From IMG/VR virus record IMGVR_UViG_3300045971_000121, positions 1-28,233 of that record: a stretch of 28,233 nucleotides of DNA. One strand, given 5' to 3'. The position numbers were made by a program, and so were the translations under genes. Below are positions 6,943 to 26,337 of the stretch, one piece after another; positions within the stretch are counted from its first letter, which is position 1; each line of letters opens with the position of its first letter. The notes below the pieces were generated by a model. That model was not told the origin of the DNA and did no database searches. It worked only from the letters and a program-made list of their open reading frames with translations. The stretch comes from a virus.

Positions 6943-6972
6943 GTGTACATTTGACAGGTTACAGAGTATAAT
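6943..6972 (+). promoter_or_regulatory. early-type promoter GTGTAC-N18-TATAAT
   Basis: GTGTAC at 6943-6948 and TATAAT at 6967-6972, 18 nt apart. The predicted start of transcription, about seven bases after the -10 box, falls at or next to the ATG at 6979, so the message could be leaderless. Confidence 0.7.
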
Positions 6973-6978
6973 ACATCT

Positions 6979-7308
6979 ATGAAAACGAAAGATGCTATGA
7001 ACCTCTCTACTAACTTTATTGGCCAATGCTATTCTTCTGATGATTTCTTCTGGGATAAGATTGGTCGTTTGTTTAAATCTGATGTCTCTGATACCCCGGC
7101 AGTTCTTCGTCAATTGTATAACGATTCGATGGACCTTGGATTTGCAATGCATTCTGTAAAAACCGGTAATATCGTTTACTTCAGTCTTGCCACTGCCCAA
7201 CGTGATCGTGAAGGAGATATGGAATTTTGGTCTTTCGAACCTACTCCAAACTCTGTCAAAGCTAATCCTGGTCTCGCAGATATCAAGGTTATCGTGTTCA
7301 ACGACTGA
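6979..7308 (+). CDS. unknown protein, possibly leaderless message
   Basis: A 109-residue protein without recognised motifs; it alternates aromatic and acidic residues (SDDFFWDKIGRLF, DMEFWSFEPTP) and looks soluble. There is no Shine-Dalgarno before the ATG at 6979, which coincides with the predicted transcription start. Met7 at 6997 is an in-frame alternative with only a weak GAAAG upstream. It is the first gene of a unit of small, mostly unknown genes running to 9049. Confidence 0.65.
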   Translation: MKTKDAMNLSTNFIGQCYSSDDFFWDKIGRLFKSDVSDTPAVLRQLYNDSMDLGFAMHSVKTGNIVYFSLATAQRDREGDMEFWSFEPTPNSVKANPGLADIKVIVFND

Positions 7309-17077: not shown

Positions 17078-17105
17078 CCTGCCTATAAAATTATTCCGGT
17101 CAGTG

Positions 17106-17113
17106 CATAAATA
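17106..17113 (+). promoter_or_regulatory. late-type promoter CATAAATA for endolysin
   Basis: CATAAATA differs from the T4 late core by one base. The 14-mer ATAAATATTCTATC here (17107-17120) recurs exactly before the holin-like gene at 21784. The predicted start of transcription, near 17119, falls inside the left arm of the hairpin over the ribosome site. Confidence 0.6.
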
Positions 17114-17132
17114 TTCTATCTTACGATAGGAG
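17114..17132 (+). promoter_or_regulatory. hairpin sequestering the endolysin ribosome site
   Basis: TTCTATC (17114-17120), 4-nt loop, GATAGGA (17125-17131), seven pairs with one G-U; the right arm contains most of AGGAG (17128-17132). A transcript started upstream would hide the site; one started at the late promoter lacks most of the left arm. T4 lysozyme gene e is controlled in this way. Confidence 0.6.
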
Positions 17133-17137
17133 TATTT

Positions 17138-17719
17138 ATGACTGACTTTACAGATGCTTATTTGAATGCATTTAATCATGCAATGAAATATGAGGTAGGT
17201 GTATTTTGGGATCCAAAAGACCCTGAAGTTATTGCGGGTCTTATTGAAACAAAAGATCAGCGCCGTAAAGTTGGCTATGTAAATATTCCTGAAGATACGG
17301 GTGGTGAAACAAAATACGGTGTAGCAAAGAATGCTAACCTTGATTTGAATATCACCACGCTCAATTTAGACGGTGCAATGAATGCATATTTTGCGAGGTA
17401 TTGGAATGCTGGAAAAAGCGATGAGCTTCCTGGTGCTGTTGCTATTATCCACTTTGATGGATGCGTTAACCACGGCGTCGGTAGGGCTTGTAAATTTCTT
17501 CAAATAGCAGCGGGAGTAACTCCTGATGGTGCGATTGGCCCAGCAACATTAGCAGCGGTTAATAGCAAAACACAAGAAGAAATTATTAATTCAATAGCAG
17601 ATCAAAGAGAAGCATTTTACAATGGTATTGTAGCAGCAAAACCAAATCAAGTAAAATTCCTAAAAGGCTGGATGGCTCGTATTATCGACATCAGAGCATT
17701 TGCACTTTCCAAAGTTTAA
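17138..17719 (+). CDS. GH108 endolysin with C-terminal peptidoglycan-binding segment
   Basis: A 193-residue cytoplasmic endolysin of glycoside hydrolase family 108 (N-acetylmuramidase). The catalytic glutamate is expected at E19 (KYEVG), where most members have EGG. The second block GGETKYGVAKNA lies about 50 residues on, an insertion compared with typical members, in which the two blocks are closer. DGCVNHGVGRACKFLQ and PDGAIGPATLAAV mark the C-terminal peptidoglycan-binding type 3 region. No signal peptide, so it needs a holin. Two holin-like genes follow downstream. Expression should be late, from CATAAATA, with an occluding hairpin. Confidence 0.88.
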   Translation: MTDFTDAYLNAFNHAMKYEVGVFWDPKDPEVIAGLIETKDQRRKVGYVNIPEDTGGETKYGVAKNANLDLNITTLNLDGAMNAYFARYWNAGKSDELPGAVAIIHFDGCVNHGVGRACKFLQIAAGVTPDGAIGPATLAAVNSKTQEEIINSIADQREAFYNGIVAAKPNQVKFLKGWMARIIDIRAFALSKV

Positions 17720-22809: not shown

Positions 22810-22839
22810 GATTACGAAGCCTTTCTAAGTTAGTATAAT
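22810..22839 (+). promoter_or_regulatory. early-type promoter for acb1-thg1 operon
   Basis: GATTAC (22810-22815), 18 nt, TATAAT (22834-22839). The -35 is one base from GTTTAC. The -10 box lies in the left arm and loop of the hairpin at 22820-22859, and transcription should begin near 22846, after that arm. Confidence 0.6.
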
Positions 22840-22864
22840 TGACATACTAACTAGAAAGGTTTTT
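22820..22864 (+). terminator. 16-bp hairpin and T-tract covering the acb1 ribosome site
   Basis: CCTTTCTAAGTTAGTAT (22820-22836) pairs with ATACTAACTAGAAAGG (22844-22859), with one bulged A and a 7-nt loop, followed by TTTTT (22860-22864). It looks like an intrinsic terminator. Its right arm also holds AAAGG, the ribosome site of acb1, and its left arm holds the promoter -10. Confidence 0.7.
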
Positions 22865-22866
22865 GC

Positions 22867-23328
22867 ATGTCGGGAAAAAAAGGAACTTACGTAGGTCTGC
22901 GAGTGCTTGCTCCAGCCAATGAACTTCTATACAAACACTGTAAAGATGCTGGGGTACCAGTACGAACTTCTATGTTCGAAAATCGATTGCATACGACCGT
23001 AATTTACAGCAGAACAAAGTGCGATGTTCTAAATCTTGACCCAGATTACAAATACATTGCTCGATTTGCAGGGTATGAAATCTTTAGCGGTCAGAAGGGC
23101 GAAAAAGTTTTAGTGATGAAGCTTGAGGCTCCTGGAGTATCTGCTCTTCACAACCAGATTATGCTTGAGAATCCAGATGCGACGTACGACTACGCTGTAT
23201 TTAGACCACACATCACGCTCAGTTACAACTACACTGACAACAACACAATGGGTATTCCAATCTTCCCGCATGACATTATACTGGGATTGGCATATGCAGA
23301 AGATTTAGATTTGGAATGGGGTAGATAA
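22867..23328 (+). CDS. acb1: anti-CBASS phosphodiesterase Acb1 (T4 57B-like)
   Basis: A 153-residue 2H phosphoesterase. The two catalytic motifs are LHTTVIYSR with H42 and T44, and RPHITLSYN with H115 and T117. These segments and the C-terminal LDLEW (W151) match T4 57B (Acb1, 152 residues; LHTTIVYSR, RPHITLSYN and LDLEW as recalled). T4 Acb1 hydrolyses the cyclic oligonucleotide messengers of CBASS defence, so this gene should block CBASS. Related fold families are RNA ligase or cyclic phosphodiesterase. Coupled to Thg1 by TAATG. Its ribosome site is within a terminator-like hairpin. Confidence 0.88.
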   Translation: MSGKKGTYVGLRVLAPANELLYKHCKDAGVPVRTSMFENRLHTTVIYSRTKCDVLNLDPDYKYIARFAGYEIFSGQKGEKVLVMKLEAPGVSALHNQIMLENPDATYDYAVFRPHITLSYNYTDNNTMGIPIFPHDIILGLAYAEDLDLEWGR

Positions 23329-24107
23329 TGGAAGAAACAAAGACAATGGATCCGATGGGTGATCGCCTTAAGGCAGCTGAACGAGTAGAAGCTGGAAGAC
23401 GTTGCGACCCAAACAAGCCGCTAATGGCTCGTCTTGATGGCAAAGCATTTCACACCTTTACTAAGGGGCTGGCTCGTCCTTACGATGTTCGCCTTAGCAC
23501 TCTGATGGTTGACACTGCTCGCTATCTTGTTGAACATACTCATGCAAAGCTTGGCTACACTCAGTCGGATGAGATCACTCTCTACTGGATGAACAAGCAG
23601 CCGCTTGAAGAATCGTCGTACATGTTTGATGGTAAGTTTCAGAAGCTAACTTCTGTTCTTGCTGGAATGGCTAGCGCATTCTTCACTAAGGAACTTGAAG
23701 CTCGTCTCCCCGAAAAAGCACATCTACTTGGTATCTTTGATTGCCGAGTTTGGAATGTAGAAAGCTTTGATGAAGTTAAGGATAACTTCATCTGGCGTCA
23801 GGACGATGCTGTTAAGAATAGTATCTCCATGGCAGCACAGGCTCTATTCTCGCACAAGGTTCTTCATGGAGTCGGTAGCGAAGCTAAGAAGAAAATGCTT
23901 CGTGAAGCTGGTAAGCCATGGGAAGATGAACCAGAATTCTTTAAGTGGGGTTCGTATGTTTCGAGAGTCAACTTCGAAGCTCCTCTTACTGAAGAACAGC
24001 TTGCTAAAATCCCAGAAAAGTTTAGACCTACTGGGCTTGTAACACGTAGTGAAGTTCAAGTGCGCGATTTTGGTTATGTCCGCAACAACCCTGAGGTAAT
24101 TAGCTAG
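23328..24107 (+). CDS. Thg1-like tRNA guanylyltransferase / 3'-5' polymerase
   Basis: A 259-residue Thg1-superfamily enzyme, which adds nucleotides to tRNA 5' ends in the reverse (3'-5') direction. Metal-binding residues are D37 in ARLDGKAFH and D81-E82 in TQSDEITLY; the Thg1 segment FDCRVWNV and WRQDDAVKNSISM are also present. It has the typical length. In bacteria and some phages Thg1-like proteins (TLPs) repair 5'-truncated tRNAs rather than make the eukaryotic G-1. The start overlaps the acb1 stop (TAATG), so both are made together. No signs of truncation. Confidence 0.92.
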   Translation: MEETKTMDPMGDRLKAAERVEAGRRCDPNKPLMARLDGKAFHTFTKGLARPYDVRLSTLMVDTARYLVEHTHAKLGYTQSDEITLYWMNKQPLEESSYMFDGKFQKLTSVLAGMASAFFTKELEARLPEKAHLLGIFDCRVWNVESFDEVKDNFIWRQDDAVKNSISMAAQALFSHKVLHGVGSEAKKKMLREAGKPWEDEPEFFKWGSYVSRVNFEAPLTEEQLAKIPEKFRPTGLVTRSEVQVRDFGYVRNNPEVIS

Positions 24108-24145: not shown

Positions 24146-24175
24146 TTCAGTGGATATAATTCTGTATCCACTGAA
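24146..24175 (+). promoter_or_regulatory. 11-bp hairpin at the 5' end of the message
   Basis: TTCAGTGGATA (24146-24156), 8-nt loop, TATCCACTGAA (24165-24175), all Watson-Crick. The predicted start (about 24149) leaves nine pairs at the extreme 5' end, which would protect the mRNA from decay. Confidence 0.55.
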
Positions 24176-24213
24176 TTAGCTTTAAGCCAGAAAACCTTAA
24201 AATGGAGTTATCT

Positions 24214-24663
24214 ATGACACATCCACTCGGCCTGAAAATCGGTCAATCTTTCACCCTTACCCCCGCAGACTTTACTCTTAAGCTTGCACATTCGAAATCT
24301 GCAGAAGCCAAAAAAGGTTTTGCGATTGACGCACATATTAAATCACTCTTGAAAGAGAAGGGTATTAATGTACCAGCAAGTCAATATGCGCCTTATGATT
24401 TTGAATATAAGGGAACAAAATATGATATTAAATCATATGCAAAGAGTTCAATAACAATTGGACCTAAAGAATATGATCAGGGTATTAATGAAATTAATGA
24501 TGGTAAAGATTTAATTTACACAGTGTTCCAACAAAATGACGGAGATGGTTTTACTTTTAAGGGATTCGTTTCCTTGAAAGCATTGATCAAATCCAATAAG
24601 ATTCGTAATTCCCAATTCAACGATACTTATTATTTCAGTATTGGTTCTGCTCCGCTGATGTAA
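24214..24663 (+). CDS. possible PD-(D/E)XK nuclease-fold protein
   Basis: A 149-residue protein. GGAG at 24204-24207 stands 6 nt before the ATG at 24214 (MTHPLGLKIG); an ATG at 24202 contains the GGAG and is an unlikely start. E31 in a helix (SAEAKKGFAIDAHIKSLL), D62 in YDFEYKG and D71-I-K73 in YDIKSYA follow the order of a PD-(D/E)XK nuclease core (E, D, D-x-K), then a strand (ITIGP) and YDQG. This is a visual match to a short and variable motif, so the nuclease call is tentative. It has its own promoter and 5' hairpin. Confidence 0.5.
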   Translation: MTHPLGLKIGQSFTLTPADFTLKLAHSKSAEAKKGFAIDAHIKSLLKEKGINVPASQYAPYDFEYKGTKYDIKSYAKSSITIGPKEYDQGINEINDGKDLIYTVFQQNDGDGFTFKGFVSLKALIKSNKIRNSQFNDTYYFSIGSAPLM

Positions 24664-24681
24664 CTAGTTACAGCGAAAATC

Positions 24682-24779
24682 ACCTGGAAGAAGTACTTTT
24701 ATTACCTAAATAACAGTGTACTTTTTCCAGGTTGTAGTGTATAATTACTTGTACGCTGATAAAACAACCTGGAAAAAGT
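24682..24779 (+). promoter_or_regulatory. three-element RNA switch before the helicase gene
   Basis: Element A, ACCTGGAAGAAGT (24682-24694), and element C, ACAACCTGGAAAAAGT (24764-24779), are near-copies. Element B, ACTTTTTCCAGGTTGT (24720-24735), is a perfect 16-bp complement of C and pairs with A over 13 positions, one being G-U. C contains GGAAAAAG, the ribosome site of the helicase. A:B and B:C cannot form together. Confidence 0.7.
24716..24745 (+). promoter_or_regulatory. early-type promoter nested in the hairpin
   Basis: GTGTAC (24716-24721), 18 nt, TATAAT (24740-24745). The -35 overlaps the first bases of element B and the -10 lies in the loop. Transcription starting near 24752 would omit A and B. 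Confidence 0.7.
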
Positions 24780-24780
24780 C

Positions 24781-26337
24781 ATGAAATTCGTTCCTTCTCG
24801 CTGGCAAGAACTCTCGGAACAGCAACAAGCTGTTATCCGTTGGGTCATCGAAGACAAAGGTTCTCTCGAACTGATGGCTCGGGCAGGTTGCGGAAAGACT
24901 TACACGATCATGAAGGTCGTGGATGCTATCGTTGAAGGTAAGCTTGGCGATATCGCTATCATGGCTTACAACAAGTCCATTGCTGATGAACTCAAGGCTA
25001 AGCTGGAAAAGACCGGCTACGACTGGAGAGTTGCTCAAGCTGGAACGGTTCACTCTTTCGGTTACGGTGCTTGGAGAAAAGTTGCTCCTCACGTGCAAAT
25101 CGAAAACAAGAAGATGTATAACATCGTTCAAGAATGTGGCTATGATCAAGGTGGAGACATCTTCCTGTTTGCTTCTGAAGCAATTGTTAAGCTTTGCGGA
25201 TATGCAAAGCAACGTGCAGTTGGTCATCTCTCCTCCATCGACGATACTTCGGTTTGGATGGATATGTTCGATCACTTCGGTCTTGAAAACGATATCACAG
25301 AAGATGTTGACGCTTACGATGTTATTAAGGCCGCACAACGCGCTTACCGTATCTCCTTGAAGCAATGCCGAGAAGTTATCGATTTTGATGACATGATTCT
25401 GGCACCACTTTACTTCAAGGCACGTTTCTGGCCCAAGGACTGGGTTGCAGTTGACGAATCGCAAGATACAAATCCTGCTCGTCGTGCTCTTGCTTTGGCT
25501 ATGCTGAAGCCCCGCACCGGTCGTATGATCTTTGTTGGAGACCCTGCTCAAGCAATCTACGGTTTCACTGGTGCCGATTCTGACTCCATGAACCAATTGA
25601 AGATCGCTACCAATGCCAAGACTCTTCCTTTGAACGTTACTCGCCGTTGCCCCAAGACGGTTGTGGAACTTGCAAAGCGTTTGGTTCCTGATTTTGTTGC
25701 TCACGAATCTGCTCCTGAAGGTGTTGTTCGTGCTATCGAATACAAGGACTTGGTTGCTGAAGTTCTCACCAAGAATGATGCAATCCTTTGCCGTAACACT
25801 GCTCCTCTGGTTCAAACAGCTTACTCACTGATTGCCAAGGGTGTTGCTTGCCGAGTCGAAGGTCGCGAAATCGGTACTGGTCTTATCAAGCTGGCACGTC
25901 GTTGGAAAATCAAGACCCTCGACAAACTGCTTGTCAAGCTGGAAGATCACCAAGCTCGTCAGACCGCTCGCTTCATGAGCAAAGGTCAAGAAGAACGCAT
26001 TGAAGGTTTGGTTGATCAATGTGATTGCCTCCGTGTAGTTATCAGCCGTTGCTTGCTGGCTAAGAAGACCAGCATTGATGATCTGGTTGCTGACATTGAG
26101 AACATGTTTGGTAACACCAAGGAAGGTGAAGCTCCCAAGGTTTTGACTCTCTCGACTGTTCACAAGTCTAAAGGTCGGGAATGGACACGGGTCTACGCTC
26201 TCGGTCGCGCAAAGTTCATGCCTTCTCCTTACGCTAAAAAGGAATGGCAAGCTGTCCAGGAATCTAACCTGGAATACGTGATGATTACTCGGGCGATGTC
26301 TGAGTTCATCGATGTCCCTATGTCTGAAAAGGAATAA
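24781..26337 (+). CDS. UvrD/Rep-like SF1 DNA helicase
   Basis: A 518-residue SF1A-type helicase. The Q motif (LSEQQQAVI) is followed by Walker A ARAGCGKT (33-40), motif II VDESQDT (224-230), motif III GDPAQAIYGFTGAD (253-266), the motif IV region LPLNVTRRCPKT, motif V STVHKSKGREW and motif VI EYVMITRA near 500. It is smaller than UvrD (about 720). The T4 counterpart in this role would be Dda, but the motifs are of UvrD type. Codon use is richer in C-ending codons than in neighbouring genes, which hints at a separate origin. GGAAAAAG is the ribosome site. Confidence 0.92.
   Translation: MKFVPSRWQELSEQQQAVIRWVIEDKGSLELMARAGCGKTYTIMKVVDAIVEGKLGDIAIMAYNKSIADELKAKLEKTGYDWRVAQAGTVHSFGYGAWRKVAPHVQIENKKMYNIVQECGYDQGGDIFLFASEAIVKLCGYAKQRAVGHLSSIDDTSVWMDMFDHFGLENDITEDVDAYDVIKAAQRAYRISLKQCREVIDFDDMILAPLYFKARFWPKDWVAVDESQDTNPARRALALAMLKPRTGRMIFVGDPAQAIYGFTGADSDSMNQLKIATNAKTLPLNVTRRCPKTVVELAKRLVPDFVAHESAPEGVVRAIEYKDLVAEVLTKNDAILCRNTAPLVQTAYSLIAKGVACRVEGREIGTGLIKLARRWKIKTLDKLLVKLEDHQARQTARFMSKGQEERIEGLVDQCDCLRVVISRCLLAKKTSIDDLVADIENMFGNTKEGEAPKVLTLSTVHKSKGREWTRVYALGRAKFMPSPYAKKEWQAVQESNLEYVMITRAMSEFIDVPMSEKE

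Follow-up and report, generated by a model that had tools for sequence, protein, structure and literature searches.

The genes e, soc, 49, I-TevI, I-TevII, I-TevIII and segB of phage T4, as well as mobE of Aeh1, are known for leaders in which RNA from upstream promoters has its ribosome site paired, while a promoter located inside the 5′ arm of the hairpin gives RNA that is devoid of this arm and is translated (PMC2988022, PMC3014915). In T4, the structure formed in the long RNA has been reported to cut lysozyme synthesis 100-fold (PMC2988022, PMC3014915), and middle promoters are also listed among the nested promoters of this type (PMC2988022). For the B. subtilis gene sigG, read-through RNA has been proposed to be kept from translation by a large hairpin of at least 20 pairs, which cannot form in RNA from sigG's own promoter (PMC5942855).

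Analysis of the 28.2-kb viral contig IMGVR_UViG_3300045971_000121 (hereafter ‘the window’, to which all coordinates refer; features lie on its + strand unless noted) points to a leader of the same kind upstream of a gene for a UvrD-like helicase. The first-pass annotation had likened the locus to T4 gene e and others, which is apt: the literature reports the same design for e, soc, I-TevI, segB and mobE (PMC2988022, PMC3014915): the combination of a paired ribosome site with a nested promoter, known there, is predicted here. However, the nested promoters of the T4 group are late (or middle) promoters, a late promoter being typical of the group but not strictly defining, whereas the one in the window is sigma70-like (GTGTAC/TATAAT), is marked by a CAGGTT box and precedes a UvrD-like helicase gene. 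The sigG leader follows the same read-through hairpin logic, but belongs to a cellular gene with other promoters and another sequence, and is unrelated by descent.

The source phage is T4-related. The terminase encoded in the window is 41–42% identical to the terminases of the large phages PA5oct and XacN1, and the window also encodes a UvsX-like recombinase, a phage single-strand binding protein, a ribonucleotide reductase and an endolysin. A Thg1-like tRNA-His guanylyltransferase (23328–24107) is located between an Acb1-like gene and the ORF starting at 24202.

Architecture and predicted folding of the helicase leader

The helicase, a superfamily 1 protein of 518 residues (PF00580, PHROG 1967), is encoded at 24781–26337 and is preceded by an ORF of 153 residues without family match (24202–24663), which would be the source of read-through RNA. 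Three elements, A, B and C, had been recognized in this region by the first-pass annotation, and its placement of all three holds. B (24720–24735) and C (24764–24779) are complementary over the full 16 nt, so that the perfect 16-bp helix described for them is indeed encoded. Within the window, B:C is the sole perfect inverted repeat of at least 14 nt with a loop of up to 100, and none of 60 sequences simulated with matching dinucleotide content contains a perfect inverted repeat of 16 nt; B:C as a chance repeat was accordingly rejected. In 28 kb, the sequence ACCTGGAARAAGT is matched perfectly at exactly three positions, all of them at this locus. The A:B pairing had been given as 13 positions with one G-U; the single G-U stands, but the length has to be corrected, since A (24682–24696) matches 24718–24732 over 15 nt with 14 Watson-Crick pairs and one G-U.

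The nested promoter GTGTAC-N18-TATAAT is present at 24716–24745 as had been described. Its −35 hexamer (24716–24721) reaches only two bases into B, the remainder of B, including CAGGTT (24728–24733), constitutes the promoter spacer, and the −10 hexamer (24740–24745) is located inside the hairpin. In addition, an inner helix pairs 24736–24744 with 24749–24757, and transcription is predicted from the −10 hexamer to start at about 24751–24753, that is, within the 3′ strand of the inner helix and downstream of B. Element C forms the 3′ arm, contains the weak helicase ribosome site GGAAAAAG, and is identical in the window and in its close relatives L003 and L004. An Rfam search of the locus and a DNA search of named phages returned no match; the pattern ACCTGGAARAAGTAC, scanned across viral contigs, is too short to be informative.

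For the hairpin (24716–24783), a folding energy of −32.9 kcal/mol (z −9.2) is predicted. The read-through RNA (24664–24840, 177 nt) likewise exhibits a significant predicted fold (z −5.6), and the short RNA from the nested promoter exhibits none (z 0.1). Around the ribosome site, bases are predicted to be unpaired with a mean probability of 0.14 in the long RNA and 0.71 in the short RNA. Folding of both RNAs, proposed earlier as a check, bears out in silico that B:C buries the helicase ribosome site in read-through RNA and that the nested-promoter RNA, beginning at the predicted start, carries only C and leaves the site open.

We consider it probable that the B:C hairpin, together with the promoter nested in it, acts as a silencer of read-through translation of the T4 gene e/I-TevI type. 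RNA from the upstream genes would contain both B and C and fold such that pairing occludes the helicase ribosome site, allowing for little helicase synthesis, while RNA begun at GTGTAC-N18-TATAAT would start after B, contain C alone, and be translated. With read-through RNA silenced and nested-promoter RNA translated, helicase output would thereby be coupled to the gene's own promoter and not to neighbouring operons. B would at the same time represent the spacer of a CAGGTT-marked promoter family of this phage group, with the leader fitted to B, and element A would be a lineage-specific addition at a variable junction, outside the conserved mechanism.

Parallel hairpins are predicted in the same window. 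One of them (17098–17147; z −6.9) lies over the late-promoter-like sequence CATAAATA at the endolysin ORF (17138–17719); in the predicted fold, CATAAATA is part of the 5′ arm and pairs with the endolysin ribosome site and ATG, the layout being the same as in T4 gene e. Another (22816–22863; z −5.7) lies over a GATTAC-N18-TATAAT promoter, has AGAAAGG of ORF 22867 in its 3′ arm and is followed by TTTTT, so that it is also terminator-like. ORF 22867 is Acb1-like (anti-CBASS), and its ribosome site constitutes the 3′ arm of the hairpin at 22810–22867. The corresponding hairpin in contig L189 (∼11385–11305, minus strand) has G-U in place of an A-U pair and one additional closing pair, with pairing kept.

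The leader in close and distant relatives

The helicases of L003 and L004 are, respectively, 97% and 94% identical to that of the window. An 87-nt block at the leader is 97% identical in both, and the leader itself differs by one deleted base, while the fourfold-degenerate sites of the helicase gene have drifted to only 78% (L003) and 71% (L004) identity. Across the three sequences, 97.3% of the hairpin cells are still paired: L003 has one broken pair, and L004 has one U-G, with the last pair of its outer helix lost and its inner helix strengthened. Double compensatory changes in B:C are absent among the three, and the comparison therefore establishes constraint, not covariation. The ribosome site is predicted to be largely inaccessible in the long RNA and open in the short one (unpaired probability.08 versus.83 for L003 and.08 versus.80 for L004).

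The part kept in L003 and L004 comprises promoter, B, leader and C (24702–24780) and ends just 3′ of A. This boundary, at ∼24702, is sharp; upstream of it, in the region of A, the window, L003 and L004 do not align, and A is absent from both relatives because their upstream sequence differs. In L189, the contig of L003, reading revealed a homolog of ORF 24202 with 50% identity (quick scans of phage and viral collections returned no homologs of this ORF), which is separated from the UvrD helicase gene by ∼5 kb of other genes. Given this separation and the unalignable upstream sequence, A is thus specific to the junction present in the window. The ∼5 kb of intervening genes (L189 minus strand, ∼9500–4175) are absent from the window and, as judged by eye, apparently include helicase-like and methylase-like ones; AGTCAAATCCCTGG, which resembles part of element A, is found near both ends of the stretch. 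The promoter leader of ORF 24202 has a hairpin of its own, TTCAGTGGATA/TATCCACTGAA (24146–24175), which in L189 (∼10010–9980, minus strand) is replaced by a different one, ATCTACAGCAG/CTGCTGTAGAT, such that the structure is retained and the sequence is not.

Among more distant orthologs, helicases with a recognisable promoter of the nested type were tested by comparing spacer:leader pairing with shuffles. In L009 (73% identity), the spacer pairs with the region around the ribosome site and start codon (p 0.000, that is, <0.01 with either shuffle); the same holds for spacer:leader pairing in L491 (40% identity, confirmed as UvrD; p 0.000), and L477 (43% identity) yields p 0.01. In these supported orthologs the 3′ arm is located on the helicase ribosome site or start codon. 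L005 is a weaker case, in which a shuffled spacer gives p 0.04 and a shuffled leader p 0.10; its pairing includes a single compensated pair (G-C to A-U) as well as a G-U. L017 (p 0.10), whose ribosome site is no less accessible in the long RNA, and L010 (p 0.14) are suggestive only. Predicted accessibility in long versus short RNA is.46 versus.82 for L009,.01 versus.48 for L477 and.28 versus.65 for L491, so that the site is less accessible in the long RNA in all six supported cases (window, L003, L004, L009, L477 and L491). Several orthologs are devoid of the design: the helicases of L007 and L008 are leaderless and start at the first bases of the transcript, and a hairpin is therefore impossible; L006 and most distant orthologs have no promoter of the nested type; spacer:leader pairing in L272 and L286 is not significant; and uncertainty over its start codon makes L274 equivocal. 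Comparison at the sequence level supports that the two-element design, a putatively hidden ribosome site with a nested promoter, is kept in distant helicases as an architecture with unrelated sequence. The proposal that read-through RNA hides the site and that nested-promoter RNA escapes is accordingly strengthened by conservation in L003 and L004 and by recurrence in L009, L477 and L491.

Element A, the CAGGTT promoter family and rival readings

Mutually exclusive A:B and B:C helices, as predicted for the window helicase leader, are a feature of three-element attenuators and riboswitch-type leaders such as that of trp. Unlike those leaders, however, the present one has no ligand domain, no Rfam match and no conservation of A, and, unlike in attenuators, no upstream leader peptide is seen that could set the choice. 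In a three-element switch, A:B would form first and open the site, C would displace A and close it, and some signal would shift the balance. We regard this as unlikely, even though the folding model does contain the two states that had been claimed: A:B and B:C amount to −53.7 and −53.8 kcal/mol in 177 nt (−35.0 and −37.6 kcal/mol in 137 nt), enforced A:B releases the ribosome site to 0.57–0.69 unpaired, compared with 0.57–0.59 in the short RNA, and A:B is dominant in the growing RNA until ∼24776, when C is nearly complete, with B:C prevailing afterwards. Moreover, the A:B pairing in the window exceeds chance (p 0.007–0.008 against shuffles), and A matches B further than it resembles C (at the GTAC end) and is therefore not just a copy of C. 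On the other hand, (i) A is missing from L003 and L004, and A-like pairing is absent from L009, L477, L491 and L017, (ii) in none of the other orthologs tested does upstream sequence pair with the spacer better than shuffled sequence does (p 0.2–0.7, compared with 0.007 in the window) and A-like pairing is not significant across the CAGGTT promoter family (z −1.6, p 0.06), (iii) B:C holds 77–94% at equilibrium in the model, (iv) the inner helix together with TTGT would provide a toehold for C and allow quick displacement of A, and (v) there is no sign of an input by ligand, protein or ribosome, neither an Rfam family nor a candidate that would shift the balance being seen.

What the first-pass annotation had called a switchable state is hence upheld as bistability in the folding model, and not as a conserved, evolved switch; likewise, of the A/B/C pairing that it expected in relatives, B:C is kept as an architecture and A is not. 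A lineage-specific switch deserves a small share of credence, because the match of A to B is unlikely to be due to chance and the two states are balanced: in the window lineage, an evolved A might render read-through RNA bistable, such that helicase translation is set by co-transcriptional A:B/B:C strand exchange, though we doubt that it does. A:B bistability may, as modelled, matter in the window phage alone. A third element added to a T4-type hairpin was not found described and, if true, would be a new addition to that design.

The promoter itself belongs to a family. The whole of IMG/VR contains just 30 stretches with GTGTAC-N6-CAGGTT-N6-TATAAT, confined to a small group of contigs with several copies per contig. 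Without a fixed spacing, the pattern gives 90 distinct hits, 78 of which have a 17- or 18-nt spacer, and in related records 15 of 23 GTGTAC-N18-TATAAT spacers contain CAGGTT or AACCTG (0.16 expected). A scan for GTGTAC-N18-TATAAT identified none in PA5oct and one repeated site, without CAGGTT, in XacN1, and no description of a GTGTAC/CAGGTT promoter family was found in the literature searched. The extended consensus GTTACA..GTGTAC-N6-CAGGTT-N6-TATAAT is seen at 6943–6972 and 24716–24745 of the window and in L189, L217, L220, L308 and L423–L447, with CAGGTT sometimes inverted or palindromic (e.g. AACCTGCTCAGGTT in L189). In many family promoters (L007/L008, L189, L429, L431, L432, L441, L447 and at 6979 of the window) an ATG follows TATAAT by ∼5–10 nt, implying that the mRNAs are probably leaderless. 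The gene at 6979, behind the second family promoter of the window (6943–6972), is such a case, and therefore no C element is possible there. In a broader set of phages (L154, L175, L469, L477, L488 and L511), the predicted first transcribed bases ATACCAACC stand opposite CAGGTTG(G) of the spacer, and the two constitute an inverted repeat around the −10 hexamer whose 3′ arm is not always on a ribosome site. Judging from its sequence, B is probably a promoter element first, because its core CAGGTT is the spacer box of an often leaderless promoter family. Conservation of CAGGTT is thus owed to its place in the promoter, where it may be the site of a regulator, and C appears to have been fitted to the CAGGTT spacer at the helicase.

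Within the CAGGTT family, spacers pair better with their own leaders than when partners are permuted (z −4.3, or z −3.6 when the window clade is left out). The strongest three of 50 family leaders all belong to helicases; a random draw of three would hit these with a chance of 1 in 19,600, and the ranking was noticed only after the fact. Promoters with GTGTAC at large exhibited excess spacer:leader pairing in a first set (z −5.2), but no such excess was seen among the 55 of an independent set (z −1.1, p 0.13). The hairpin as a general trait of GTGTAC promoters was rejected on this ground, and our claim for the design is limited to the helicase and to individual genes and does not extend to the promoter type.

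It could be argued that CAGGTT/AACCTG is a DNA operator recognized by a phage regulator, with A, B and C as three binding sites and their complementarity as a by-product. The frequent occurrence of the motif in either orientation, the preference for 17- or 18-nt spacers, its palindromic form in L189 and the nine leaderless family members that cannot form a B:C hairpin all speak for such a site. Yet an operator would cover merely the 6–8 nt core, while the B:C complementarity spans 16 nt; the extensions beyond the core vary between promoters and nevertheless match their own leaders, AACCTG is present in the leader of just 7 of 56 family members, and the helicase hairpin of L009 exists without any CAGGTT, which in sum renders the operator reading improbable. 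That the repeats are functionless products of template switching at replication is even less credible. Quasi-palindrome correction would leave copies such as A and C, each of which nearly reproduces the complement of B, and A is located at a junction that differs among relatives; for B:C, however, such an origin is already disfavoured, given that the block remained 97% identical while fourfold sites drifted and that unrelated sequences yield the same architecture at the same gene. Least of all do we expect the helix to be an RNase III-like processing site or a terminator instead of a translational block. Its 25 pairs in total would make a plausible substrate for a double-strand RNase, and the Acb1 hairpin in the same window, with its TTTTT, has the look of a terminator, but processing would not require the 3′ arm to coincide with the ribosome site or start codon, as it does in the supported orthologs. 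An intrinsic terminator at the helicase was likewise rejected: C is followed by CATGAAATTC, with no T-run at 24780, and the terminator scan made no call at this site.

Implications for large phages

Silencing of read-through translation by the B:C hairpin, if correct, suggests that the trick known from T4 lysozyme extends beyond late lysis genes and homing endonucleases. The locus differs from the known leaders in the helicase as the gene concerned, the sigma70-like nested promoter with its CAGGTT box, and the recurrence at one gene in distant phages. The CAGGTT family, with its 17- or 18-nt spacer and often leaderless genes, provides a concrete target for start-site mapping, and the hidden-site design, as predicted, recurs with unrelated sequence at the UvrD-like helicase in several distant large phages.
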